Under the pieces are notes generated by a model, which saw only the letters and a program-made list of their open reading frames with translations, was not told where the DNA came from and did no database searches. A DNA stretch of 64,000 nt from a bacterium (GTDB taxonomy: Bacteria; UBP14; UBA6098; 4484-93), in the NCBI GenBank assembly GCA_021158465.1, contig JAGGUN010000028.1:1-64000 (forward strand). The letters are read 5' to 3'. How positions within the stretch are numbered: the stretch's first letter is position 1; every line of letters begins with the position of its first letter. The position numbers and the translations under genes were made by a program. Of this stretch, positions 25,284 through 40,088 are shown in pieces.

Positions 25284-25643
25284 CTACCTGCTATGTCCAC
25301 AGGGCGAAGCACCACCAGCTTCACCGGCAATATATCGCTTTACCGCCTCCTCAACCGTTCCAGTTGCACCTGTCTGAGGCTCTATACCGAGCTGCTGGAA
25401 AAACCCTATTGCACGAGGTCCCATCCCACCGGAGATAATCACATCCGCACCGAGAGACCTAATAAACTCCGGCATCACCCCGCTCCGATGACTGCCAGCA
25501 TAGGGGTTCTTATGCACGGTATTAGCCACAATTTTATCACCCTCTACCTCGACGACAACATAATACGGGCATCTGCCAAAATGCTGGGAGACAGGACTCT
25601 TCAACCCCTCGCCCGTGTCTGCGGAAACGGCTATCTTCTTCAT
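25284..25643 (-). CDS. NifX/NifB-type dinitrogenase cofactor-binding domain protein
   Basis: 119 residues from ATG 25643, chosen because GGAGG lies 8 bases upstream; the ATG at 25658 has none. The domain ([27 protein letters not shown]) is the NifX/MTH1175 type that binds iron-sulfur or FeMo-type clusters. No nitrogenase genes are present, so a role in iron-sulfur handling is more likely. It ends in a Gly/Cys/His tail (ASPCGHS). Confidence 0.87.
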
Positions 25644-25661
25644 ATCTACTACCTCCAATTA

Positions 25662-25917
25662 TCAGGAAGATTCCTTCTGTTTCATCGCATATTTTGCCCA
25701 GAGAATTAGAGCCAGCCCAACAAAGAGGCGGACAAGTCCACCTGCAAGAACCAGCCCATGAAAAAACCAGATGTCGTAAATAAGCGAGAATATTGTCAGA
25801 CCTGCTCCAACACCAAGCCCTCGCAGCAAGCCTGCGCTTGAGATATTCTATGATAATTGCTACAATCGGGATGGACAACGCAAACACTATTGCAACAATC
25901 GGAACCAAAATCTCCAT
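25662..25917 (-). pseudogene. Small membrane protein gene with a one-base frameshift
   Basis: ATG at 25917 has GGAGG 8 bases upstream. The first frame encodes about 25 residues, mostly one membrane span (MEILVPIVAIVFALS), and then becomes non-hydrophobic and Trp/Cys-rich. Skipping one base near 25830-25838 restores a frame with two further spans (LTIFSLIYD, LFVGLALILWAKYAM) and a stop at 25662, just before the next gene. The joined product would be about 84 residues with three spans. The shift point lies in a perfect hairpin, CGCAG-GCTTG-CTGCG. Possible reasons: true mutation, sequencing error, or +1 recoding. First gene of the oxygen-defence operon. Confidence 0.75.
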
Positions 25918-25990
25918 CGGGAGCACCTCCACGCTATAAGTTCGGATTAAATATAGCAAATTCTAAACTGAAACCAAACCAATTTTTTGT

Positions 25991-26018
25991 TTGACTACAC
26001 CTGCTCAAATGTTATCTT
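25991..26018 (+). promoter_or_regulatory. Promoter of the aminopeptidase/barrel operon
   Basis: TTGACT (25991-25996), 16 bases, TATCTT (26013-26018). CAGGAGG precedes the ATG at 26046. Confidence 0.7.
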
Positions 26019-26045
26019 GTTTTCCAATATCTCAGGAGGCAGAAT

Positions 26046-27008
26046 ATGAAAGATGAACTCACAAAATCGGCAGAGATAGTCATAACCCAGTGTGTCGCCT
26101 TGAGGAAGAACGAAAACATCCTCGTGCTGTTCGATGCGCCAGAGAGGAGAATTGCCAACGCCCTGTTCGAGGTGGGGAAGCGGTATGCCAACGAGGCTAT
26201 CGCAGTTGAGATAACCCCTCGTGCAAACCACGGCGAGGAGCCACCCGATATGGTCGCCGAGATTATGCCGCTCTTCGATGTTATCCTCATTCCGACATCA
26301 CGCTCGCTCTCACACACCGATGCCAGAAGAGCTGCCTGCGCAAGAGGTGCCCGGATTGCAACCCTGCCGGGGATAATCGAGGATACATTCATCAGAACAC
26401 TAAACGCCGACTACAACAGGATAGCCGAACTCTCGAACAAGCTCGCCCATCTTCTGACCGAGGCAAAGAGAGCAAGGGTAGTAACGGATATCGGAACGGA
26501 CATAACGATGTCGCTCGAAACGAGAAAGGGACACGCCGATACGGGTATTCTCCACAAGCCAGGCGATTTCTCCAATCTGCCGGCAGGCGAGGCATACATT
26601 GCACCGCTCGAGGGCACAGCTGAGGGGGTGTACATAGTCGATGGTTCGATGAAGGACTCCGGTGTGCTCCAGCCAAACGAATACATCACGATAACGGTCA
26701 GGGATGGCTATGCCACCGAGATAAAGGGAGGAAAATCGGCAGAGGATATAATCCACACGGTTGAGAGATACGGAAAGGACGCCCTCAACATTGCAGAACT
26801 GGGTATCGGAACGAACTACAAGGCAAAAATAATCGGCAATGTTTTAGAGGATGAGAAGGTATTATCAACGGTGCACATTGCAATCGGCGACAACAAGTCT
26901 ATGGGTGGAAATGTCAATGTTCCGAGCCATCTCGATGGCATCATCCGAAACCCGACACTATTTCTCGATGATAAGATGATTATGGAAAAAGGGGAAATCC
27001 TCGTATAA
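26046..27008 (+). CDS. M29-type aminopeptidase (leucyl aminopeptidase family)
   Basis: 320 residues with AGGAGG before the ATG. The protein follows the short M29-like family: an N-terminal region of alternating strands and helices, then VTDIGTDITMSLE, the segment NLPAGEAYIAPLEGTAEG near 178-195, ELGIGTN near 255 and a C-terminal region with HIAIGDNKSMGGNV. These Glu and His residues match the metal ligands of the family. Likely cytoplasmic and acting on short peptides, perhaps those released by the exported proteases. Confidence 0.85.
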   Translation: MKDELTKSAEIVITQCVALRKNENILVLFDAPERRIANALFEVGKRYANEAIAVEITPRANHGEEPPDMVAEIMPLFDVILIPTSRSLSHTDARRAACARGARIATLPGIIEDTFIRTLNADYNRIAELSNKLAHLLTEAKRARVVTDIGTDITMSLETRKGHADTGILHKPGDFSNLPAGEAYIAPLEGTAEGVYIVDGSMKDSGVLQPNEYITITVRDGYATEIKGGKSAEDIIHTVERYGKDALNIAELGIGTNYKAKIIGNVLEDEKVLSTVHIAIGDNKSMGGNVNVPSHLDGIIRNPTLFLDDKMIMEKGEILV

Positions 27009-27023
27009 GATAAGGAGAAACCG

Positions 27024-27935
27024 ATGAAAAAAGCTATCATTACCGTTGCTTTTGTCCTTCTTCTCACAGAGAGCCTCCTTGCCATCGATGCTATGGATAT
27101 GCAGAACTTCATCTACCTTCGGGACAGCGGTATAGTTCTGCCGCACCTTCATCCGATAGCAGGTATCGACTATATCTCCACCTCCACAGACAAAACATAC
27201 GACCGCGAGTGGGACAAAGAGGACATATACGGGACATACAAGAGGTCAGTCATATGGTACTCAATCGGCTTCGGGCTCGGCGATATGTTCGAGACGAGGC
27301 TGTTCATTCCGACACTCACCCACTCCCTGGAGAGCGATTATCCAACTGTTCGCAAGGATGAGTCCTCCGGCGCATCCGACATCTGGCTGACAACGAAGTT
27401 CGCTTTTATCCAGAAGCCTTACCTTTCGTTCAGGTTTGGTGTGAAATTCCCGACCGGCGATGATAACCCCCCGTCCAACAAGCTCCCAACAGGTGATGGG
27501 CAAACTGACCTCGATTTCTCGATATTATCCGCTTATCAGCCAGAGCAGGCTGGTGTCGCATATAATGTTTCGGTCGGATACAGACTGCGCTTCGAGCAGG
27601 AGGAATCTCCTCAATCCAGTGGATATGATTTCGACCCGGCAGATGAGGGACATTTTGCACTGTATATCGGTGGAAAACCGGTCGAGTATTTTGGCATACT
27701 ATTCGGCGGCAACGGCTTTATCTCAACCAGCGATGACAGGATCTCATCCAGTGGTTTCTCACACAACCTCGATGACACCTGGCGAGCATACTTCCAGGTC
27801 GGAACGATAATCAAAGGCTACTCACCGGTGGGTGTCAATTTGAGAGCAGATTTCCATTTTGATGTTGCAGGCAAGAACGAACCAGCCGGCTTCACCTGGG
27901 GGGTGGGGGTCGAATATATCCCAAAGTTCTACTGA
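27024..27935 (+). CDS. Outer-membrane beta-barrel protein
   Basis: 303 residues: a signal peptide ending near ALA-like LLAIDA, then alternating amphipathic strands (for example SYLSFRFGVKFPTGD-like, GVAYNVSVGYRLRFE, PVGVNLRADFHFDV) and a terminal aromatic residue (Tyr at the C-terminus). The pattern resembles MetA-pathway/transporter-type barrels of unknown substrate. It follows the aminopeptidase by 15 bases with AAGGAG before the ATG. Confidence 0.7.
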   Translation: MKKAIITVAFVLLLTESLLAIDAMDMQNFIYLRDSGIVLPHLHPIAGIDYISTSTDKTYDREWDKEDIYGTYKRSVIWYSIGFGLGDMFETRLFIPTLTHSLESDYPTVRKDESSGASDIWLTTKFAFIQKPYLSFRFGVKFPTGDDNPPSNKLPTGDGQTDLDFSILSAYQPEQAGVAYNVSVGYRLRFEQEESPQSSGYDFDPADEGHFALYIGGKPVEYFGILFGGNGFISTSDDRISSSGFSHNLDDTWRAYFQVGTIIKGYSPVGVNLRADFHFDVAGKNEPAGFTWGVGVEYIPKFY

Positions 27936-27941
27936 AAACGG

Positions 27942-27969
27942 TTGCAAAAAAGAGAAGTCGAATTATATT
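27942..27969 (+). promoter_or_regulatory. Promoter of the fumarase-beta/hdrC/TPR operon
   Basis: TTGCAA (27942-27947), 16 bases, TATATT (27964-27969). The start lies near 27976, inside a short inverted repeat. AAGGAGG precedes the ATG at 28009. Confidence 0.7.
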
Positions 27970-27982
27970 GGGTTGAAACCCA
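27969..27982 (+). repeat. Inverted repeat at the predicted transcription start
   Basis: TGGGTT-GA-AACCCA, a perfect 6-base inverted repeat overlapping the predicted +1 site. It is a possible operator; no regulator is identified. Confidence 0.4.
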
Positions 27983-28008
27983 GCATCTAACAGCTCAAGG
28001 AGGTCTCA

Positions 28009-28566
28009 ATGGCGGAGGCAATCAATATAAGGACACCTCTAACAGAGGAGGTTGTCCGCAGCCTGAAGGCAGGGGATTCTGTGCTCATCTCGGGTGTTAT
28101 ATATACTGCAAGGGATGCTGCACACAAAAGGCTTGTCGAGCTGATTGAGAAGGGTGAGCCTCTCCCGTTTGACATCGAGGGGCAGATAATCTACTATGTC
28201 GGTCCTGCACCAGCAAAACCAGGATACCCAATCGGTCCCGCCGGACCAACGACAAGCTACCGTATGGACCCGTATGCACCGATCCTAATCGAGAACGGGC
28301 TACGCGGTATGATAGGCAAGGGACCGAGAAGAAAAACAGTAGAAGAAGCAATGAAGAAGTTTGGTGCGGTATACTTCGCTGCAACCGGGGGAGCAGCAGC
28401 ACTCATCGCCAAGAGTATAAAGAAAGCGGAGGTTATAGCCTACCCCGAGCTCGGCGCCGAGGCAATAAGGCAGCTCGTTGTTGAGGGTTTCCCGGCAATA
28501 GTCGCACAGGACTCACACGGCGGAAACCTGTACAAGGAAGGTCAAAGGAAATATAGAGCCGAATAG
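28009..28566 (+). CDS. Fumarase/tartrate dehydratase beta subunit (Fe-S hydro-lyase)
   Basis: 185 residues. The class I fumarase beta fold is seen in PLTEEVVRSLKAGD near 9, ISGVIYTARDAAH near 27-39, YVGPAPAKPG near 63-72, GPTTSYRMD near 79-87, and the substrate-binding MIGKGPR near 104. It pairs with an alpha subunit that binds the [4Fe-4S] cluster. The alpha subunit is not encoded in the window, although the two are usually adjacent. It therefore depends on a distant gene. Confidence 0.92.
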   Translation: MAEAINIRTPLTEEVVRSLKAGDSVLISGVIYTARDAAHKRLVELIEKGEPLPFDIEGQIIYYVGPAPAKPGYPIGPAGPTTSYRMDPYAPILIENGLRGMIGKGPRRKTVEEAMKKFGAVYFAATGGAAALIAKSIKKAEVIAYPELGAEAIRQLVVEGFPAIVAQDSHGGNLYKEGQRKYRAE

Positions 28567-28614
28567 AAGAAGGGCTACTTTCGCCCGTGGAAGCCTCTCA
28601 AAAAGGAGACTGGA

Positions 28615-29013
28615 ATGAAAACGGTATGCAAACTTGAGCCAGACAAAAAGTATGTGGATAAGGTCGCTTCAATCAGCCTCGAGCGGATAAACAAGTGCTA
28701 CCAGTGTGGGGCATGCACATCAGGCTGTCCATCTGCCTATCTTATGGAGATCAAACCAAATCAGGTAACGATGCTTCTGCAGGTTGGCGATTCAAAAACA
28801 TTACTGGAAAGCGAAACCCCTTGGTTGTGCCTCGCCTGCTACCAGTGTGAGAAGCGCTGCCCACAGGGGATAAGTATCGCACGGATACTCGAGGCGGTCA
28901 GAGAAACTGTTTTGCGCAAGGGAATAGATACTACCTCTCTTTCCGATGTCAAGGAAATAGAGGAGCTTCCATCGGTAGCACTGGTAGCAAACTTCAGAAA
29001 GATGACATCATAA
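28615..29013 (+). CDS. hdrC: HdrC-like heterodisulfide reductase iron-sulfur subunit
   Basis: 132 residues with two [4Fe-4S] motifs, CYQCGACTSGCP near 35-46 and CLACYQCEKRCP near 74-85. This is the layout of HdrC or of the equivalent domain of DUF224-type oxidoreductases. HdrA and HdrB do not follow; the next genes are envelope proteins. It starts 48 bases after the fumarase gene with AAGGAG upstream. Confidence 0.88.
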   Translation: MKTVCKLEPDKKYVDKVASISLERINKCYQCGACTSGCPSAYLMEIKPNQVTMLLQVGDSKTLLESETPWLCLACYQCEKRCPQGISIARILEAVRETVLRKGIDTTSLSDVKEIEELPSVALVANFRKMTS

Positions 29014-29021
29014 CAGTTGCT

Positions 29022-29933
29022 ATGCGATATATCGCCATCCTTGTCACACTACTTCTACCTGTTGCACCCTTATTCTCTCAGGGTAGCTTTGAGGACAAAA
29101 TATTAGACAAAATACTCTCGTCGGACACATTCTCTCCTGCCCCTCCAGAAGGCAATCCTCCCCTTGCATTCGCCGAAAGCCTCTACGCCACAGAGGAATA
29201 CGATGAGGCAAAAGGAGAATACAAAAGGGCAATCTTTCTGTCGGAGGACAAATCGGTCATTAGGTTCGCCACATATAAGCTCTCCGTTTGCCTGCTAAGG
29301 GAAAAGAACTTCGAGGATGCTCTACACATCCTATCCAGTTTCGATTATGACCAGGACGACACAATAAGCATCACCGCACACCTTCTGTCAGTCCTTCTGT
29401 TTGCGCTCTTGGGGAAAAAGGAGTCTGTCCACTTTGAGCTCGCAAACCTGACATCAAGAGGAGAACCAGAGATCCTTCCTAAGATCCTGTATGTCAAGGG
29501 CTGGGCTGAACTTATCCTCGGAGATATCGAAGGAGCAAAAAGGTCTTTTGAGACGGCCGTGAACACAGAAAACGACATACCTGAGCGCGACAGAAGCTAC
29601 TCGCTCCTCCGGGAGATAAAGGGGTTCCGACCGCTCTATGTTTCACCGGAAGAGGCAAGATGGCTCTCTGTTGCCATCCCCGGGGCAGGACAGATGTATG
29701 CGGGAGAGATAAAAGAGGGGATAAACTCCCTCGCTCTAAACCTGCTTCTCGGCGGTGCAACGGTGTCATATCTGTTTAAGGGAGGATATATTCAGGCAGC
29801 GACCATAGCAACTTTTCTTTGGTCAAGATACTGGTGGGGAAGCAATATAAATGCTGCAAGGCTTGCCGAAGAAAAAAACAAGAGGATAAATCGCGAATTC
29901 GTCCTGAAACTTGTGAGGGAATATGGTATATAG
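29022..29933 (+). CDS. Exported TPR protein with DUF5683-like C-terminal membrane module
   Basis: 303 residues: signal peptide (ends near LFSQG), about four TPR-like repeats (about 45-185), and a C-terminal part from about 208 starting VAIPGAGQMYAGEIKEGI, followed by two hydrophobic spans. That IPG-x-GQ-x-Y-x-G motif is the DUF5683/P6-like module. The C-terminal module recurs in the gene at 30315, with the YidD-domain gene in between. Probably inner- or outer-membrane associated with the repeats in the periplasm. Overlaps the next gene by 11 bases. Confidence 0.75.
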   Translation: MRYIAILVTLLLPVAPLFSQGSFEDKILDKILSSDTFSPAPPEGNPPLAFAESLYATEEYDEAKGEYKRAIFLSEDKSVIRFATYKLSVCLLREKNFEDALHILSSFDYDQDDTISITAHLLSVLLFALLGKKESVHFELANLTSRGEPEILPKILYVKGWAELILGDIEGAKRSFETAVNTENDIPERDRSYSLLREIKGFRPLYVSPEEARWLSVAIPGAGQMYAGEIKEGINSLALNLLLGGATVSYLFKGGYIQAATIATFLWSRYWWGSNINAARLAEEKNKRINREFVLKLVREYGI

Positions 29934-30321
29934 GGTCGCTACAACATCTGTTCTCATTCTGCTCTCTCTTTTCGGAACACCTCGGGGCGAAACAAAGGAC
30001 ATACCTATATTGGAGAGGCTGGATTCCCTCGAAACAGAGGAAGCAGTGGACACCCTCGACACAAGAACAGTTTCCTGCTTCTTTGAGGCAGCCATCCTTT
30101 TCTACCAGCACTTCATCACCACACAAGACGCTCAGGAGTGCCAGTTTCGTCCATCCTGCTCGGAGTTTGCTCTTGCCTCATTTAGGCTAACGGATCCCGT
30201 TCAGGCGTATCTTATGACAACAGACAGGCTCATCCGCTGCAACCCAACAGCAAGAAAATATTACGACAAGGACAAAGAGAACTTCCTTGTTGACCCACCC
30301 GAGGAGCATATACTATGGTGA
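29923..30321 (+). CDS. YidD-domain protein with an N-terminal signal peptide
   Basis: 132 residues. Residues about 68-115 carry the YidD core: YQHFIT, then CQFRPSCSEFAL, then RLIRCNP. Normal YidD is a 70-90-residue cytoplasmic/peripheral protein that helps YidC insertion and sits beside rnpA and yidC. Here the core is preceded by a signal peptide (VATTSVLILLSLFG) and a 40-residue linker, and lies between two TPR proteins. The domain is thus predicted outside the cytoplasm, with its three Cys able to form disulfides. Start ATG overlaps the previous gene. Confidence 0.82.
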   Translation: MVYRVATTSVLILLSLFGTPRGETKDIPILERLDSLETEEAVDTLDTRTVSCFFEAAILFYQHFITTQDAQECQFRPSCSEFALASFRLTDPVQAYLMTTDRLIRCNPTARKYYDKDKENFLVDPPEEHILW

Positions 30322-31244
30322 TGAGGAAAACGATGTTTCTTCTACTCCTTCTGATACCCTTCTGTGCACAAGCTCAGGAGCCGGTTGAGCTTCGGGTACC
30401 GAAGGCAGAGAAGAAGCCGTTCGGAAAAGAAGAGATCATATCCTTCGCTGACTTTCTGTTTCGTGAGGGAGATTACGAGAGAGCCGCCACCGAGTATAGA
30501 CGGTTCTGTTTCTTGTATCCTGAGGAGAACGATGTACCGTACGCGCTTTTCCAGGCGGGGGTATCCCTCGAAAAGTGCGGCAGATACAAGACTGCAAGGA
30601 AGCTTTTTAAGCAGTTCTATCGGAAGAGAGGAGACAAAAAAGCCTCGATCGCTTCCTCGTACAGGATCGCCTGCACTTACATAGAAGAAAAGTATTATCC
30701 GACCGCCGTAAAGTATCTCGGCAACTATGAAAACAGCTGGGGGAAACTACCAACCCAGATGAGGTATCTTAGAGGATATGCCTATCTCAAGATGGGTTCA
30801 TATAGTGATGCTATTGAGGAGCTATCCTCTCTGAATGTCAAAGGAAGCTCGCTTTCCTCCGCGACATACTTCCTCATCTCCAAAGCGAAGCAAGGGGCGG
30901 TTCTGCCGAGGAAATCTCCTGTGGTATCTGGGCTTTTGTCGGCAGTGGTTCCTGGAGCAGGTAGGGCATACTGCGATAAGTGGGGAGATGCGATATTCTC
31001 GCTCCTTTCCGTCGGCATCCCGGCTGGCATAGGTTACGCCCTGATGGAAAAAGATAGAGGCTTCTCCAACGCCTGCTTTTTCCTCTCTGTAAGCTTCTAC
31101 CTCTCGGATATCTACGGCTCGACCGTCGACGCTATAAAGTATAACAGGGATACAGAGCGCCACTTCCAGGAAAGCATTGACCGCGATATCCCTGTCGCTC
31201 CAACAGAGATATTCTCCGACTATTCGAGCATCGAAAACAAATGA
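30315..31244 (+). CDS. Second exported TPR protein with DUF5683-like C-terminal module
   Basis: 309 residues (ATG 30315; ATG 30321, in TGATG with the YidD stop, is equally possible). Signal peptide to about CAQAQ, TPR-like repeats about 35-185, then VVPGAGRAYCDKWGD near 222 and two membrane spans. It is a divergent paralogue of the protein at 29022, sharing the domain order. The three genes overlap and should be translated together. Function unknown. Confidence 0.75.
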   Translation: MVMRKTMFLLLLLIPFCAQAQEPVELRVPKAEKKPFGKEEIISFADFLFREGDYERAATEYRRFCFLYPEENDVPYALFQAGVSLEKCGRYKTARKLFKQFYRKRGDKKASIASSYRIACTYIEEKYYPTAVKYLGNYENSWGKLPTQMRYLRGYAYLKMGSYSDAIEELSSLNVKGSSLSSATYFLISKAKQGAVLPRKSPVVSGLLSAVVPGAGRAYCDKWGDAIFSLLSVGIPAGIGYALMEKDRGFSNACFFLSVSFYLSDIYGSTVDAIKYNRDTERHFQESIDRDIPVAPTEIFSDYSSIENK

Positions 31245-31840
31245 ACAGAGGAGGAAAGAGGATAATCTGGGAGGTCTTGAGAAAGCTCGTTCACCTCGGT
31301 GCTCTCGTAATCCCTACCCTTTACTGGTTCCTCCCCTGGAAGTTCTCAATAACTGTTTTATCCCTCGTTACATTCGGTGTCGTGTTAGCAGATGTTTCGC
31401 GCCTCATACATACACCCCTTACCCGTTTCATATACAGGAAAGTTGGTCACATGCTCCGCAGGCATGAGTACAAGAAATTTACAGGAGCATCGTATATTCT
31501 GACAGCGAGTCTACTGGTGATACTTGTCTTCCCGAAACCGATTGCGGTTACTGTCCTCGTGTATATAATTGTGGGTGACACCGCAGCTTCCATCTTTGGA
31601 AAGCTTTTCGGCAGGACAAAGCTCACAAGAGGGAAAAGCCTTGAGGGTTCTCTCGCCTTCCTAACCTTTGCATTCCTTGCGTCGGTTCCTGTGCCATATG
31701 TGCCAACCACAACGAAATTCCTCGGGGCAATGTTCGCAACATTCATCGAGTTCTTACCGCTCAAGCTCGATGACAACCTGACAGTTCCTGTGCTAACTGG
31801 GCTCTTCTTGAAAATCATTGCTGGAACACTTGTTGGATGA
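31241..31840 (+). CDS. Dolichol/phytol-kinase-like CTP-dependent membrane kinase
   Basis: 199 residues with about six spans. The features LRKLVHLGA near 13-21, VGDTAASIFGKLFGRTKL near 110-127 and GKSLEGSLA near 131 are those of the SEC59/VTE5 dolichol, phytol and farnesol kinase family, related to CdsA. It would phosphorylate a polyprenol or similar lipid at the inner membrane. It overlaps the upstream TPR gene by 4 bases (ATGA), tying it to that operon. Confidence 0.83.
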   Translation: MNRGGKRIIWEVLRKLVHLGALVIPTLYWFLPWKFSITVLSLVTFGVVLADVSRLIHTPLTRFIYRKVGHMLRRHEYKKFTGASYILTASLLVILVFPKPIAVTVLVYIIVGDTAASIFGKLFGRTKLTRGKSLEGSLAFLTFAFLASVPVPYVPTTTKFLGAMFATFIEFLPLKLDDNLTVPVLTGLFLKIIAGTLVG

Positions 31841-32291: not shown

Positions 32292-35288
32292 ATGAGAAAA
32301 TTGACACTGGTTCTTTTCTGTGTCCTTGTAGGAGGGAGTCTTTTTGCGCAGGGGAACCTGGGGTATGAGGACAACACAGGTGCCCGTCCCCTTGGGATGG
32401 GGAGGACATTTGTTGCCCTTGCCGATGACGGGTATGCCGCTTTGTGGAACCCCGCCGGTGCTGATATGTTCATTGAACGGACACTCTCCGGAATGTTCTC
32501 TCGATTGTATCTCGGACTGGACAACGATGCAATATATGAGGGGTTCATCTCCTACACACACCATTTCGAGAAGACTGGCTCGCCTGCCCTGTCTTATATC
32601 CAGTTAGAGAGTGTTCGCTATCGGGAGATGAATCTTGCACTTACTTACAGTAAGAGGTTACCCAGGAACTTGTATCCCAGAGGGATGAGCTTTGGTGCGA
32701 CATTCCATATCCTGCGGAACCAGTATATTCGCTCCAACTTTGACTACGAGCCACAGTTGGGGGATGCCGAGCATCACATCGGTGACCCGCTCAATGACCC
32801 AATCTTCCGTAACGGCTGGGGAAAGACCAATTTCACACTCGATTTTGGCTTTCTCATGAGGCTCAAGCACAATCTGTCCCTGGGATTTGCAGCATCGAAC
32901 ATCCTTCAACCGGATATGTCACTCACCGGTGACCCTGAAGCGGGGCATTACCCGATGACACTGAGGTTCGGCACCGCTTATCGGTATCACGACTTTCTTG
33001 TCGCTGCTGCGGACTTGCGCTATATCAACGAGAGTATAAACGGGAAGAACAGGTTGAAGCCACACATAGGCGCAGAATGGTGGTTTTCCGACGGAATGGT
33101 TGCTATCCGTACCGGCTGGAATCCAGAGGAATACTCTGCAGGCTTTACCTATCGGACAAAAGCGACCCTCGACCTTCAGCTCGATTATGCGTTTGTGTAT
33201 CCGCTCTCCACAGTGAGGGAAACAGGGGCAACATCGCACAAGCTTTCTGCGACCATGCGTTTCCTACCTCCTCCAAAGCCTCTAATAGACCTCTCCTTAC
33301 GCTCGACCGATATGTCTGTATATCCGAGGAACGCTATCCTCGGTGAGCCCGTGACAATAACAGCAAAGATTGAAAACCTCGGAGAAAAGAAGGTAAGCGA
33401 CTTTAAGGTAACGCTTTACTACCAGTCGCCTGACGCAGGATGGGTGCTTGTGGACGAGCCAAGGACGATAAAGAAGGGGGTAAAGGTCGGCGAGGCACTG
33501 GAGGTTTCCTGGAAGTGGGTTCCTCCAGCAAAGGGGCATTATCAGTTGTTCTCCGCTGTTGACGATGATGGGAGTCTGATTCCAGAGATAAGTGGAAGTC
33601 TCGATGAGATCGATGAGGAAAACAACAAGGGAGCAGTGGAGTTGGATGTTTTTCCGCTGCCAACAGGGACGATCACGCCGGAGGAGTTAAAACTTGAGAT
33701 CGCCCAGGTAACCCTTGTCCGCGAGGAGGAGCCGATAGTCCCTATCGTGTTCTACGACCCGATGCAGACAAGGATAGACCCCAGATTCGAGAAGCTCCTC
33801 TCTACGATCGTCAACAGGATGTCCAATAACCCTGACATCGAGCTTATCCTTTACGGCTACTATGACCCCGAGACTGAAGGGATGGGTTATTCCGTATATG
33901 GTGAGAAACTTGCGAAAGAGAGAGCGCTTGTTCTCCGCTCGCATCTGCTCTCTATGAACCCGTCTCTCAGGGGCAGGATCCGCGTCGCATCTCCTACGGA
34001 ATACGACCCATCCGCAGGCAGAGCAGGAAAGCAGGAGGAGCGTCTACCGGATGACATTCCAAGGATACAGGCGGAGAACCGTCGTGTGGAGATAAAATCA
34101 CGGGTCATCGGGTTCGAGGACTGGCAGGCGTCCATCCCGTTCGAGAAGAACTCCTCCAAAGTAGAGAAGGCAAAGCTTCATAACCTCCGGGCAAAAGCAA
34201 GCGATATAAAGAGGATACTTGAGGACAATCCTGAAGCCATATTGCTCTTTGAGGGGCTCGCCACAGAAGATGAGAAAGACAATTGGTCCCTTACCTTCGA
34301 CAGAGCCTACAATGCAAAACAGGCTCTCAAGAGCATACTTGGAGAAGAAGCGTTTGAGAGGTTCGAGAATCGGATATTCATCAAAGGTAACACAGACAGG
34401 TTCACAGAGGAGCCGAAGGCGGTTGCTTATCTATCTGGAGAAGGGTTAATCTACCGCCCAATGGAAGGGACGATGGCCGCCAAGGAATACGAGATGGAGG
34501 AGGACCAGCAGAACTTTGTGAAGGTAAAAGCAGAGGCTGAGGCAGGGATAGATTCCTTCCGGGTCAGCATAATAGATGAAGACGGGAACCTGTTCAGGGT
34601 TCTTGCCGAGGGTGCTGGCACCCCGCCAAGGGGAATCCCTTGGAACTGGAAGGATGAGAACGGCAACCTCTTGAACCCAGCCCGGAAGTATTTCTGCAAG
34701 CTCGAGCTAAAGGATAAGCTTGGACAGCGGTTCGAGACCATCTCCGATACAATAAGGGTAAAGGTAACAGAGAGGGAACAGTTGACAGAGACCCTTATCC
34801 TTGTGCAGTTCAACTTTGACGAGAAGGTGTCTGAGTCGAAGTTCCTCGAGAGCCGTGTTGAGTATGTCGCACGCAAGTTCATTGAGAGGGCGCTCGAGCC
34901 GAAGAAGCGGCTTGTGGCAGTCGTCGGCGGGCACACAGATGTGGTCGGCATGAGATACCGCAACGAGGAGCTGAGCATCGAGAGAGCAAAAAAGGAAGAA
35001 GCAAACCTCCGCCAGTATCTCATTTACCTTTTGGGACTATCCAACAACAGGGAGCTGAACAGCTGGCTCAGAGCTCACAATACCGTGCTAACATACAGAG
35101 GATACAGAGACACAAAGCCGTATGTAATTGACAAGTGGCAGGAAGGGAAATTTGTAACAGAAGAGATAGGCAACAATGAGCTCCCAGAGGGCAGGACTAT
35201 CAATCGCCGAGTCGTAGTAGAGTTCTATATGGAGAAGGCAGGAGAAAAACCGAAGGAGCTCCTACCACCACAGTCACTTAAGAAATAG
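32292..35288 (+). CDS. PorV/PorQ-like barrel fused to CARDB and three OmpA-like modules
   Basis: 998 residues. Signal peptide to about FAQG. Residues about 22-325 form a PorV/UPF0164-like barrel (GARPLGMGRTFVALADD, WNPAG). A CARDB-like Ig domain spans about 335-455. OmpA-like module 1 is near 480-555, module 2 near 613-685, both lacking the full NxxLSxxRA signature. A FlgD-like Ig insert (FRVLAEG, WNWKDENG) follows near 745-830. Module 3 near 845-985 has the full GHTDVVG, NEELSIERAK pattern for binding peptidoglycan. It would link outer membrane, wall and perhaps the Por-type exporter. Monocistronic. Confidence 0.83.
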   Translation: MRKLTLVLFCVLVGGSLFAQGNLGYEDNTGARPLGMGRTFVALADDGYAALWNPAGADMFIERTLSGMFSRLYLGLDNDAIYEGFISYTHHFEKTGSPALSYIQLESVRYREMNLALTYSKRLPRNLYPRGMSFGATFHILRNQYIRSNFDYEPQLGDAEHHIGDPLNDPIFRNGWGKTNFTLDFGFLMRLKHNLSLGFAASNILQPDMSLTGDPEAGHYPMTLRFGTAYRYHDFLVAAADLRYINESINGKNRLKPHIGAEWWFSDGMVAIRTGWNPEEYSAGFTYRTKATLDLQLDYAFVYPLSTVRETGATSHKLSATMRFLPPPKPLIDLSLRSTDMSVYPRNAILGEPVTITAKIENLGEKKVSDFKVTLYYQSPDAGWVLVDEPRTIKKGVKVGEALEVSWKWVPPAKGHYQLFSAVDDDGSLIPEISGSLDEIDEENNKGAVELDVFPLPTGTITPEELKLEIAQVTLVREEEPIVPIVFYDPMQTRIDPRFEKLLSTIVNRMSNNPDIELILYGYYDPETEGMGYSVYGEKLAKERALVLRSHLLSMNPSLRGRIRVASPTEYDPSAGRAGKQEERLPDDIPRIQAENRRVEIKSRVIGFEDWQASIPFEKNSSKVEKAKLHNLRAKASDIKRILEDNPEAILLFEGLATEDEKDNWSLTFDRAYNAKQALKSILGEEAFERFENRIFIKGNTDRFTEEPKAVAYLSGEGLIYRPMEGTMAAKEYEMEEDQQNFVKVKAEAEAGIDSFRVSIIDEDGNLFRVLAEGAGTPPRGIPWNWKDENGNLLNPARKYFCKLELKDKLGQRFETISDTIRVKVTEREQLTETLILVQFNFDEKVSESKFLESRVEYVARKFIERALEPKKRLVAVVGGHTDVVGMRYRNEELSIERAKKEEANLRQYLIYLLGLSNNRELNSWLRAHNTVLTYRGYRDTKPYVIDKWQEGKFVTEEIGNNELPEGRTINRRVVVEFYMEKAGEKPKELLPPQSLKK

Positions 35289-35349: not shown

Positions 35350-35367
35350 GTTTGCCGATATTTCTTC

Positions 35368-35395
35368 TTGACAAGGGGATTTTATTTTTTAACTT
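35368..35395 (+). promoter_or_regulatory. Promoter of the giant Ig-repeat gene
   Basis: TTGACA (35368-35373), 16 bases, TAACTT (35390-35395). Leader of about 55 bases with AAAGGAG before the ATG at 35457. Confidence 0.65.
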
Positions 35396-35456
35396 GATTA
35401 AGCAATTTCTTGTCAGGGAGAGAGAAATAGTGAACCTCAAAAAAGGAGCGTATAGA

Positions 35457-38400
35457 ATGAGAAAGAATTTAGTAGTGGCTATGGTTATGGCTCTTTTTGC
35501 TCTTCTAAGCATAACGAGTGGGGCATATTCTGCCTCTGTCAGTCTCAGTGAACCCCTTAACGGGACGACAACATCCAACCCGTTCCAGGAGGTTTACTAT
35601 GTGTTCACTGATGCTTCCGATGTCGATCCTTCGACAATCCTCTTGACAGTGACCATTGATGGGGTGCCTGAGACATACCATTATATGATGCCCGAACTCA
35701 CCTGGGACCCGTCCAGGCTCTACTTTATTCCATCTGTTGCGTTCGAGGATGGAGACATAGTTGAGCTTGAGCTTGTTGCAGAAACGTTCTCGGGAGAACC
35801 GGTAGATGGGTGCCCGCTAACAAGCACATTCTCCGTTGATATGTCAGGACCCTATGTCCTCCGTTTTGCACCCGAGTATGTTGTTATTGACACCCTCGGA
35901 ACCCTTGCTCCTCCTGTATTCACCGAGAGGAATATCCCGTTCGAGATGGAGATAACCGATGACTACGGCGAGATAAATCCTCATTCGGTTCGAGTTCAAC
36001 TAACCTCTGCTTCCTACACCCACACGCTTACCTATTCTGGAACATACCGCTTCTATTGGGTGGAGACCGATTCGTCTGTTATCATCTCGTTCTACCCCGA
36101 TTCGGTTGGTATCCTCTGGGAGGCAGAGGACCACATAACCGTTCGGATAGTATCAGCAGAGGATATGCCTGACTATGGTGAGGCAAACACCCTTCAAGGA
36201 AGTGAGCTAAACGAGTTCGAGTTCTTCATAAGCGCAACTGGACCAACCGCCGAATACATCTTCCCCGAGGATAGTAGCTTCACATCGTGCACCGATTTAG
36301 AGCCTGTGCTTCACATCCATGATGTGGACGGTGTCCTCGCAGATTCGACTCATCCCATAACGATCGATGTGAACGGAATAGAGTTTTCCTACCCGGCTGA
36401 CGAGAACCTTACCTGGGACGAAACGACGGGTATGCTGACATACCATCCGCTTTCCCCATATCCCGACGGTAGTGCGATAACTGTTTCGCTCCTCGAGGCT
36501 TACGATTCGCTGGGAAATCCAGTTGAGCCTGAGGGGATGATATCTTGGACATTCTTTGTCGACAGGACACCGCCTGTGGTTGACCTTATGTCCAACTGGC
36601 CTCCGAACGGTTACACGACAATGAACAGGCTCGAACATATAAGCTTTAGGACATACGACATCTTCGGTGACGCAATCCGCCCTGTGGACTCCGACAATAT
36701 TCATGTGATTATCCAGAAGAGCGATGGGACAAGATATGAGTATTTTTCCGTCGGCTCCCTCATTCCGGAGTATGATTCTGTACCCGAGATACTGTGGGAT
36801 GGATACACCTGGGAGTTTGCTCCAGAGTCGCTGGGTATAAGCTGGAACCCTGGCGACACGATCTATGTGTCGATATATGAGGTCAGAGATAACATTGACT
36901 ACTGCGCACCCAACATAACTTATGTTGGACCGTTTGTCTGGGAGTTTTATGTAGCCTCTGGACCGCAGGTTGAGATCGTTCAGCCGCTTCCTCGCTCGAC
37001 ATCCAATTGCCCGGACCAGGTTGTTCATCTTATCCTCCACGACGAGGACGGAATCGACCCGGCAAGCGTTCTGCTCGAGGTGAACGGGACAGTGTATGAC
37101 ACAGGATACATCTATGAGGTATGCGATACATTCTGGTATGGCGTCGAGTGCGACACGATCCATCCTCTTCTTGTTCTTGATTCTATTGTCTACTTCAGGT
37201 CACCGGTGCCTTTTGAGAACCATGAGGAGGTGGAGGTATCGCTTCTCTCAGCTGCTGATATCCATGGGAACCAGTTTGAGGGGAGACCGCTCTCCTGGTC
37301 GTTCATAATGGATATGGACCCACCCATTCCAGGGAACCCGTTCCCTGCAGATGGAGCTTATTTCAACGCTCACGACATCTCTCTTGAAATCTACGATTCG
37401 TTATCCCACGATGTTTACTTAGACAATATGATGGTTGTCATCAATAATGCGTATAGGTACATCTATCCTGGGAATATGCTCTGGTGGGACCCTGTTGCCG
37501 AGAGGCTGCATTTCTATCCCGACTCAACCGATATGCCTCTCGTGGATGGTGAGGTCTTAAACATCTGTGTCTACAACATTTCCGACAATCCGACACACCA
37601 CGACTGCACCGTCTACGGCAACCTTTATGATGGACCTTACTGCTGGAGCTTCACTTACGACGAGAGTCCGCCCGTTGTTGGCGATGTCGTCCCTGCAACA
37701 GGGACATTCTCTGCTTGCGACACACAGCAACTCTCGATTGAGATAACTGATCCTGCCGGTGTTGACCCATCAAGCATCATGCTCGTTGTGAACGGACACC
37801 TCTACACAACCTCATCTCCTTATCTTGACTATGACGGGACATACCTTGTCTTCACTCCACCTGAGGCTTACACTACAAGTGGAACCGTGGTCAACTGGGC
37901 AGTTATCCAGATGGCTGATCTCGCTGGCAATCTTATCGACGGAACCCCAGCCACCGGTCACTTCACTGTCGACCTCGCGCCACCTGTTGTCGCCTCTACA
38001 TTCCCAGAGGATGGTGAGTTTGTCACACACCCGATCGACCATATATCATTCGATGTCTATGATGTGCTCTCTGATGTGAACTGGAGCAGTGCCAGCTTCA
38101 CTGTAACCGTGACAACAGATGACGTGCCTGAGGTGTTCGAGATACCAGCAGGTTCGGAGGCTATAGATTTCTATGGAAACACCGTTCTGCTCAATCTGGA
38201 GGCGGCAGGCATCGCGTTTACCCTCGGCGGTCAGGAGGTCGAGGTGAACTTTACAATAGCCGACAACCCTGACTACGCCTGCGACGAGGCAAACATCCTC
38301 GAGGAGACGCTCAACTTCACCATAGACCCCGGTTGGAAAGTTGATTTCGTTGTCTGGGACACACTGGTGGACATAAGCTGTACCTTCGACACCATATGGG

Positions 38401-40088
38401 GCATAGACGGGTTTGGTGACAGCTTCGTCGTTGCCATAGACACAACCTGCGACACAACAATCACAGAAGCCTGGACACCTATTCTGACATTCGGAGCAAC
38501 ATATGAGGGAACGCCGGGATACGACCCAGGTCTCGATGTAGAGGCTCCCCCCTCAGGACCCGGTCCTGGTCCCAGCCAGCCTGCATTTGTAATCGATGGT
38601 GGAATGAGACTGACATCAGACTACCGCGGGCTTATGGATGAGACTTTCGAGTGGATGCTTGCCTGTGGCGATGAAGCCGGCACACTTATCTGGTTCCCGG
38701 ATGAGATACCCGATGGGATTAACCTCGTGATGAACGGCTACCTCGATATGAGGACAACCGACCACTACGACTACAATGCGGGGGATGTTATACTCATCAA
38801 TATGTACCGCGATATCATCTCGCTCAACGCTGGCTGGAACCTTGTTTCTGTGCCGGTCGAACCCATCGATCCCAGCGTCGATGCCGTGTTTGTCGAGCCG
38901 ATAGTCTCTATACTTCCCGAGGAGATGCGCCCCGCGTGGAGAGAGATCATAAAGGGGAGCATCTGGCACTACAACCCAACGCTCAGGAGATACGAACCGG
39001 TCGTGAATGTTGAGCCAGGGAAGGGATACTTCATCCTCTCCCCCGTTATCACCTCGAGCCATACGGAAACAGTAATAGAAGACACCGAAACGACCTATGT
39101 TGAGGTAATCGATACCATCTTCGATGGGAACATCTCCTTCACCGTTCCCGGTGCCCCGGTTATGACATTCACCGAACGGCTTACCCGTGGCTGGAACACG
39201 CTTGGGAGCGTATATAACTTCGGTGGAGTGCCTATCTCCGACTGGACAATCGACCCTGAAGGCTCCCTAACAGGAGGTCTTCTCTTCTCCTACAATACCG
39301 AAACCTGCGGATACGATAGGGAGACAGGGGTTAGAGCAGGAATCGGATATTGGATATTCGTAATGCCGCCGTACGGTTTCGACTACGCCGATGTCACGAT
39401 CGATGCCGGTATCCTCACCAAGAGCCTACCTGTGGCATCAACAATCGAAACCCCGAGCTGGGTAGCTAACATCTCCATCTCCTCCGATGACAGAACAAAA
39501 ACCCTGACAGTCGGGCTCGATGAGAATGCAACGGATAGCTACGATGCCTCGTTTGACCTACCAATGCCACCTGCCCTTCCCGGCGCATTCGATGCCTGCA
39601 TCTTAGAGAACGACGAGTTGGGAAGGTATAGTGTTAGTGTGAAGAAAGAAGGTCCCTGGACGCTTTGTATCAACTCAGCTGCCGTTGTCCAGTCCGACGC
39701 TGAGCTTTACATCCTCGTAGATAACAGATGGACAAACATTCAGGTTCCCGTTTCTGTTCCCGCTGGCGAGTATCTACTGAGAGCAATGGCCGAGAGTTCT
39801 GCTATCCCCACAGAGTTCGCACTCCTTCCAAATGTGCCGAACCCGTTCAATCCCGCAACAGAAATAGCTTTCAACCTGCCGAACGAGTGTAGGGTTGAGC
39901 TTTCCATCTACAACGCAATCGGTTCGAAGGTTCGCACGCTCGTGGATGAAACCTTGCCTGGCGGCCATCACACAGTGGTATGGGATGGAAGGGACAACAC
40001 AGGCAAGCCGGTGCCGACAGGTGTATATTTCTACCGCCTGACATCGGATGAGTTCACATCTACACGCAAGATGCTGCTCTTGAAGTAG
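35457..40088 (+). CDS. Giant secreted protein with repeated Ig-like modules and sorting domain
   Basis: 1543 residues from ATG 35457 (AAAGGAG upstream, signal peptide immediately after); an in-frame ATG at 35352 lies before the promoter. Residues about 25-1000 are made of alternating modules. One type has a DGVDP-like loop, VNG, then AADxxGN and SWSF-VD ending in PPVV; the other starts at PPVV, then PxDGxF and YDxLSxDV. I count about four pairs. A further region (about 1120-1450) contains LNAGWNLVSVPV and RGWNTLGSVYNF repeats. The end is the canonical FlgD-like sorting module (NVPNPFNP, VWDGRDNTG, GVYFYRL, LLLK). Probably a surface adhesin or S-layer-like protein. Confidence 0.85.
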   Translation: MRKNLVVAMVMALFALLSITSGAYSASVSLSEPLNGTTTSNPFQEVYYVFTDASDVDPSTILLTVTIDGVPETYHYMMPELTWDPSRLYFIPSVAFEDGDIVELELVAETFSGEPVDGCPLTSTFSVDMSGPYVLRFAPEYVVIDTLGTLAPPVFTERNIPFEMEITDDYGEINPHSVRVQLTSASYTHTLTYSGTYRFYWVETDSSVIISFYPDSVGILWEAEDHITVRIVSAEDMPDYGEANTLQGSELNEFEFFISATGPTAEYIFPEDSSFTSCTDLEPVLHIHDVDGVLADSTHPITIDVNGIEFSYPADENLTWDETTGMLTYHPLSPYPDGSAITVSLLEAYDSLGNPVEPEGMISWTFFVDRTPPVVDLMSNWPPNGYTTMNRLEHISFRTYDIFGDAIRPVDSDNIHVIIQKSDGTRYEYFSVGSLIPEYDSVPEILWDGYTWEFAPESLGISWNPGDTIYVSIYEVRDNIDYCAPNITYVGPFVWEFYVASGPQVEIVQPLPRSTSNCPDQVVHLILHDEDGIDPASVLLEVNGTVYDTGYIYEVCDTFWYGVECDTIHPLLVLDSIVYFRSPVPFENHEEVEVSLLSAADIHGNQFEGRPLSWSFIMDMDPPIPGNPFPADGAYFNAHDISLEIYDSLSHDVYLDNMMVVINNAYRYIYPGNMLWWDPVAERLHFYPDSTDMPLVDGEVLNICVYNISDNPTHHDCTVYGNLYDGPYCWSFTYDESPPVVGDVVPATGTFSACDTQQLSIEITDPAGVDPSSIMLVVNGHLYTTSSPYLDYDGTYLVFTPPEAYTTSGTVVNWAVIQMADLAGNLIDGTPATGHFTVDLAPPVVASTFPEDGEFVTHPIDHISFDVYDVLSDVNWSSASFTVTVTTDDVPEVFEIPAGSEAIDFYGNTVLLNLEAAGIAFTLGGQEVEVNFTIADNPDYACDEANILEETLNFTIDPGWKVDFVVWDTLVDISCTFDTIWGIDGFGDSFVVAIDTTCDTTITEAWTPILTFGATYEGTPGYDPGLDVEAPPSGPGPGPSQPAFVIDGGMRLTSDYRGLMDETFEWMLACGDEAGTLIWFPDEIPDGINLVMNGYLDMRTTDHYDYNAGDVILINMYRDIISLNAGWNLVSVPVEPIDPSVDAVFVEPIVSILPEEMRPAWREIIKGSIWHYNPTLRRYEPVVNVEPGKGYFILSPVITSSHTETVIEDTETTYVEVIDTIFDGNISFTVPGAPVMTFTERLTRGWNTLGSVYNFGGVPISDWTIDPEGSLTGGLLFSYNTETCGYDRETGVRAGIGYWIFVMPPYGFDYADVTIDAGILTKSLPVASTIETPSWVANISISSDDRTKTLTVGLDENATDSYDASFDLPMPPALPGAFDACILENDELGRYSVSVKKEGPWTLCINSAAVVQSDAELYILVDNRWTNIQVPVSVPAGEYLLRAMAESSAIPTEFALLPNVPNPFNPATEIAFNLPNECRVELSIYNAIGSKVRTLVDETLPGGHHTVVWDGRDNTGKPVPTGVYFYRLTSDEFTSTRKMLLLK

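Follow-up and report, generated by a model that had tools for sequence, protein, structure and literature searches.

The window analyzed here, a stretch of 64,000 nucleotides, belongs to a bacterial genome (G000) of 2.04 Mb that is 97.6% complete, and its phylum was sampled by 17 genomes from four families (f1 to f4). The plus strand of the window carries at positions 29022-31840 four overlapping genes in the order TPR1, YidD, TPR2 and a kinase-like gene, with overlaps of 11, 7 and 4 bases, respectively, and the gene calls agreed with the coordinates and the overlap given in an earlier note on this DNA. TPR1 (29022-29933) codes for a protein with a signal peptide, a TPR solenoid (TPR_2, 32.3 bits) and a C-terminal PGxG helical hairpin (PGAGQMYAGE..., 29643-29876, limits approximate) that was delimited with our own HMM (t1) and overlaps a sub-threshold DUF5683 match at residues 208-229. 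The YidD gene (29923-30321) codes for a putatively exported YidD paralogue of 132 amino acids, with a signal peptide predicted from sequence and conservation (MVYRVATTSVLILLSLFGTPRG, 29923-29988, cleavage site approximate) and a core containing the CQFRPSC and DRLIRC motifs (30085-30267, 58.4 bits), which was modelled at high confidence (about 92-96, residues 71-130). TPR2 (30315-31244) combines a signal peptide, a TPR solenoid that is weakly BamD/CpoB-like and a C-terminal PGxG hairpin (PGAGRAYCDKWGDA...DIYGS, 30912-31145, limits approximate) located with a hairpin HMM, and the last gene (31241-31840) encodes a CTP_transf_1-type polytopic protein resembling dolichol/phytol kinases or cytidylyltransferases. 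The window also encodes, at 32292-35288, a 998-residue protein composed of a PorV-family-like N terminus (53 bits, cut-off 90) followed by CARDB and OmpA domains and, after it, at 35352-40088, a 1,578-residue surface protein whose end resembles by eye a FlgD-like/T9SS C-terminal sorting domain.

YidD proteins are very widespread and poorly understood, and the only role described for them is that of a factor working alongside YidC in the inner membrane. The YidD of the window exceeded the cut-offs of both PF01809 (57.1 bits, cut-off 27) and TIGR00278 (50.8 bits, cut-off 40), which upholds the YidD core proposed in the earlier note. That note had suggested looking for a normal yidD next to yidC in the same genome, and such a gene was found at C20:24519, between rnpA and yidC; the cassette YidD is therefore an extra paralogue beside the ordinary one, and a second YidD match was also observed in several other genomes of the phylum. 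In Escherichia coli, ordinary YidD was reported to aid the insertion of inner-membrane proteins by YidC, an activity that, in the parts of the literature consulted, rests on a single study (Yu et al. 2011, via PMC3573977 and PMC8082313). The cassette YidD shares with this E. coli membrane protein insertion efficiency factor the core family and the CxxxPSC and R..RC motifs, but it lies away from rnpA and yidC and has a signal peptide. Although a hydrophobic helix is also found at the N terminus of ordinary YidD, the hydrophobic N terminus of the cassette protein is added ahead of that core helix, and all the N-terminal substitutions between G000 and a relative of the same genus (G001) keep the residues hydrophobic or small.

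To place these observations in a wider frame, the GTDB genome collection was searched with YidD alone, using the motif C[QP][FM]xPSCSxF, and the best 80 loci were taken; their records were labelled as at least seven phyla and included the lineage of the window, Ignavibacteriota, Bacteroidota, Poribacteria, Neomarinimicrobiota/Fidelibacterota, Spirochaetota (Treponema), Thermodesulfobacteriota and others. In the exported YidDs from these loci, the first motif cysteine does not occur before residue 51 (median position 73), whereas its median position among 29 ordinary YidDs is 29. Export was judged by a strict sequence rule for signal peptides together with N-terminal hydrophobicity and the position of this cysteine; 64 of the 80 proteins satisfied the rule, and most of the remainder missed only the net positive N-terminal charge. 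The conserved hydrophobic N terminus and the late cysteine rule out a mis-called start, and the export of the cassette YidD, as proposed before, is supported by these sequence features.

Both cysteines of CxxxPSC were invariant in the exported YidDs (80/80), and the third conserved cysteine of the core was replaced by aspartate in 41 of them and retained in 39, with no other residue at this site (loci L094 to L173). Because 39 of the 41 Asp-type proteins have exactly two cysteines in the core region, the pattern fits a disulfide within the first pair; the strict choice between cysteine and aspartate would also be compatible with a metal site. The two Asp-type groups fall together in the YidD tree, so we do not claim independent changes, and the switch may represent a single ancestral event. 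In this tree, which was built from 80 columns on sets that were both picked by motif and whose bootstrap had not fully settled, one branch separated 81 exported from 30 ordinary YidDs with a support of 100/99, and the split was present in all 200 bootstrap trees counted.

To detect partners of YidD, the C-terminal hairpins of TPR1 and TPR2 were modelled as HMMs from sequences of the phylum of the window alone, after two unrelated proteins of 1,214 and 1,221 residues had been excluded from the TPR1 seed. A TPR/helical-hairpin partner adjoined or was fused to YidD in 74 of the best 80 loci, arranged as YidD-TPR2-TPR1 (39 loci), YidD-hairpin fusion (20), YidD-TPR2 (7), TPR1-YidD-TPR2 (5), TPR1-YidD fusion (2) and YidD-TPR1-TPR1 (1). 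These HMMs found no TPR partner at the other six loci, one of which is at a contig end. In contrast, they detected no TPR-hairpin partner at any of 38 ordinary yidD loci, some of which overlap mutually and many of which span only about 1.5 kb per side; locus L061 is not a true ordinary control, since it carries an exported-type YidD beside a TPR-hairpin gene (L232). In ten further genomes from GTDB Bacteroidota, the order was YidD-TPR2-TPR1 in nine and YidD-TPR2 in one, and because these cassettes lie between unrelated metabolic genes, it is the triad that forms the conserved unit. The linkage is not an artefact of a context-based search, given the YidD-only query, and chance is likewise argued against by this recurrence and by the fact that TPR1 and TPR2 were the only two TPR proteins of such kind detected in G000. 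The triad is thus conserved far beyond the genome of the window, which rules out an adjacency peculiar to it, and its carriers include cultured Bacteroidota such as Mucilaginibacter and Arcicella.

The fusions of YidD to TPR proteins took two forms. A protein of 410 residues in the sister family f3 has the order signal peptide-TPR-hairpin-YidD and groups with TPR1 in the hairpin tree, and the fusions of Bacteroidota and Marinimicrobia have the order signal peptide-YidD-[TPR]-hairpin and group with TPR2. YidD therefore occurs fused to either paralogue, and at opposite ends of it, a finding that provides good support for a joint action of the three proteins. Two additional genes were observed near such units. 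In Bacteroidota and in G022, an unrelated genome, the gene directly 3' of the YidD-TPR2 unit codes for a small exported protein that has a beta-type domain and a single transmembrane segment (L108, 7066-7599; L053, 4345-4884); the L108 protein had no Pfam or NCBIfam match, and it is possibly an extra partner of the module. In Marinimicrobia, an exported protein with a sub-threshold Sm/Hfq-like segment and an apparent beta-barrel end is encoded directly upstream of the YidD-hairpin fusion (L134, 4982-5881; L120, 5028-5966).

The claim that two exported, paralogous TPR proteins flank YidD was borne out, since both exceeded the Pfam TPR cut-offs and they share 22% identity over residues 47-280 (E 2.4e-7). 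In a tree of the hairpin domain, proteins in the TPR1 position (upstream or second downstream, where the TPR1 orthologue lies in other phyla) and in the TPR2 position (first downstream) fell on opposite sides of one branch (99/94), and TPR1 and TPR2 are, as judged from this phylogeny, two ancient paralogues. The DUF5683-like ends attributed to them were not supported; TPR1 scored 16.8 bits against the curated PF18935 cut-off of 26.7 and TPR2 gave no match, so membership of this family was rejected. DUF5683 and TM2-type hairpin proteins have in common with the cassette proteins a PGxG motif followed by a helical hairpin, but the cassette hairpins are sub-threshold and mostly follow a TPR domain or are fused to YidD. 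Similarly, TPR2 resembles the BamD/CpoB-type periplasmic TPR proteins (OM_YfiO, 40 bits; tol_pal_ybgF, 39 bits), but its scores are far under the respective cut-offs (81.4 and 90.1), and it differs in its C-terminal hairpin and its association with YidD. An AlphaFold2 model of a Mucilaginibacter YidD-TPR-hairpin fusion (mean pLDDT 77) contained a TPR solenoid predicted with confidence and, after it, two long C-terminal helices, of which the last has 45 residues; its YidD part was poorly modelled and no YidD contact was seen, and a Foldseek search with this model returned only TPR proteins in general. No solved relative of YidD was detected by family profile search or by Foldseek of the YidD model.

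Some lineages add a further partner. In Poribacteria (L101 to L104), YidD is immediately preceded by a gene whose product is related to LolA along its entire length, as indicated by an hhalign match to the LolA profile of 96% over 191 columns (0.3-4% in control comparisons), although it remained under the Pfam LolA (PF03548) cut-off (13.3 versus 23.6). In some Treponema (L146, L158, L160 and L163), a domain fused in front of YidD matched the poribacterial profile at 88% over 224 columns and LolA directly at only 29%, so that its putative homology to LolA is reached only through the poribacterial profile. Searches of Pfam and of PDB sequences with the LolA-like domain gave a sub-threshold LolA match or nothing. 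By homology, the neighbour and the fusion would connect the module with the trafficking of lipoproteins in two phyla, and they suggest a device for lipoprotein sorting, with YidD and the TPR proteins presenting lipoproteins to a carrier of the LolA type, releasing them to it or taking over steps of the LolB type. We regard such a dedicated role as unlikely, since the cassettes of other lineages, that of the window included, have no LolA-like partner, the ordinary LolA of those lineages is mostly encoded elsewhere in the genome, and no LolA was detected by Pfam in the genome of the window.

A second possibility is an accessory function of the module in the type IX secretion system (T9SS), where it would cooperate with SprA and PorV-family barrels to bring components or cargo of this system into the outer membrane. 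In agreement with it, SprA (TIGR04189) was present in 16 of the 17 genomes of the phylum, which lies outside Bacteroidota, and the SprA/Sov translocon homologue of G000 (C31:23972-29578; L233, 8769-14576), located near secDF, scored 689 bits against a cut-off of 200. Moreover, the cassette is immediately preceded by a gene for an outer-membrane protein of the PorV family in f2 and f4 and, with a weaker score, in f3, and among 99 Bacteroidota genomes SprA was found in all 13 cassette carriers as compared with 77 overall (p 0.03, not corrected for kinship). However, this correlation is explicable by shared ancestry, 64 SprA-bearing genomes among the 99 are without the cassette, and the cassette-bearing Treponema (two genomes), one Desulfobacterales genome and G059 gave no SprA match. 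A strict T9SS role is excluded as a general one because of these last carriers, and we consider the accessory role quite unlikely. As a separate observation, two poribacterial open frames of about 2,200 residues (G063:C43, about 68782-72639; G064:C54, about 25505-29476) gave weak SprA matches (62-66 bits) and are possible distant SprA homologues.

The coupling to a dolichol/phytol-kinase-like gene put forward in the earlier note stood in part. The protein of the window reached only 14.8 bits against CTP_transf_1 (PF01148, cut-off 24), and its homologues in f4 scored 30.9 and 34.1 bits. The gene, which overlaps TPR2 in the window, adjoins TPR2 in the families of the phylum, even in f3, where TPR2 occupies its own locus and YidD-TPR1 is located away from both. 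A role of the kinase-like enzyme in the synthesis or recycling of a lipid of the polyprenol or dolichol type, with the triad as its periplasmic partner, would account for this linkage, but the module had no kinase-like gene next to it in the other phyla inspected; we thus reject the gene as a core part outside the 17-genome phylum and as part of a general system, and a function in lipid-carrier metabolism seems highly improbable. Least probable is that the cassette YidD assists YidC in the cytoplasm as an ordinary YidD does, held by a membrane anchor at its N terminus, and that its neighbourhood is incidental, since, despite the shared Pfam family, the retained core motifs and the hydrophobic helix of ordinary YidD, its hydrophobic segment is an additional one, the genome already has an ordinary yidD between rnpA and yidC, the f3 and Bacteroidota fusions place YidD inside secreted polypeptides and the TPR linkage recurs in 74 of the best 80 loci.

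Taken together, the linkage, the several fusion arrangements, the ancient TPR paralogues, the signal peptides, the separate YidD paralogue and the LolA-like neighbour and fusion led us to favour, at somewhat under an even chance, a conserved envelope-assembly module in which TPR1 and TPR2 hold YidD outside the cytoplasm, where it aids its clients; we infer its membrane location, complex formation, clients and activity. TPR1 and TPR2 would be secreted proteins with periplasmic TPR solenoids, attached through the helical hairpins at their C termini to what is most likely the inner membrane, although the identity of this membrane is uncertain because the hairpins are only moderately hydrophobic. 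They would thereby keep the secreted YidD paralogue on the non-cytoplasmic face as a counterpart of the presumed role of ordinary YidD inside. There it would aid the insertion or hand-over of membrane-inserting clients, either membrane proteins or lipoproteins, which in some lineages might be passed on to the LolA-like carrier. Against this envelope-assembly module count the six of the 80 loci without a TPR gene and the restriction of the LolA link to Poribacteria and some Treponema. The envelope assembly system of the earlier note hence stays a proposal, and the LolA-like fusion and neighbour provide it with a new and more specific lead. In a broader and slightly more tentative form, the module could be an envelope-biogenesis complex of at least seven diderm phyla, formed by a non-cytoplasmic YidD-type insertion factor, two TPR scaffolds and, in some lineages, a LolA-type carrier.

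No description of an exported YidD or of its module was found in the open-access literature searched, where DUF5683 appeared only in an unrelated context and a paper naming YidD, LolA and tetratricopeptide together concerned an ordinary yidD adjoining yidC. The module is real, conserved and apparently undescribed, and its YidD represents a new exported branch of this known family. A secreted sister family with fixed partners offers a new handle on the role of the YidD fold, and the recurrence of an exported YidD with scaffold proteins points to a widespread and unstudied cell-envelope machine, which may expose an unrecognised step of envelope building across much of bacterial diversity.
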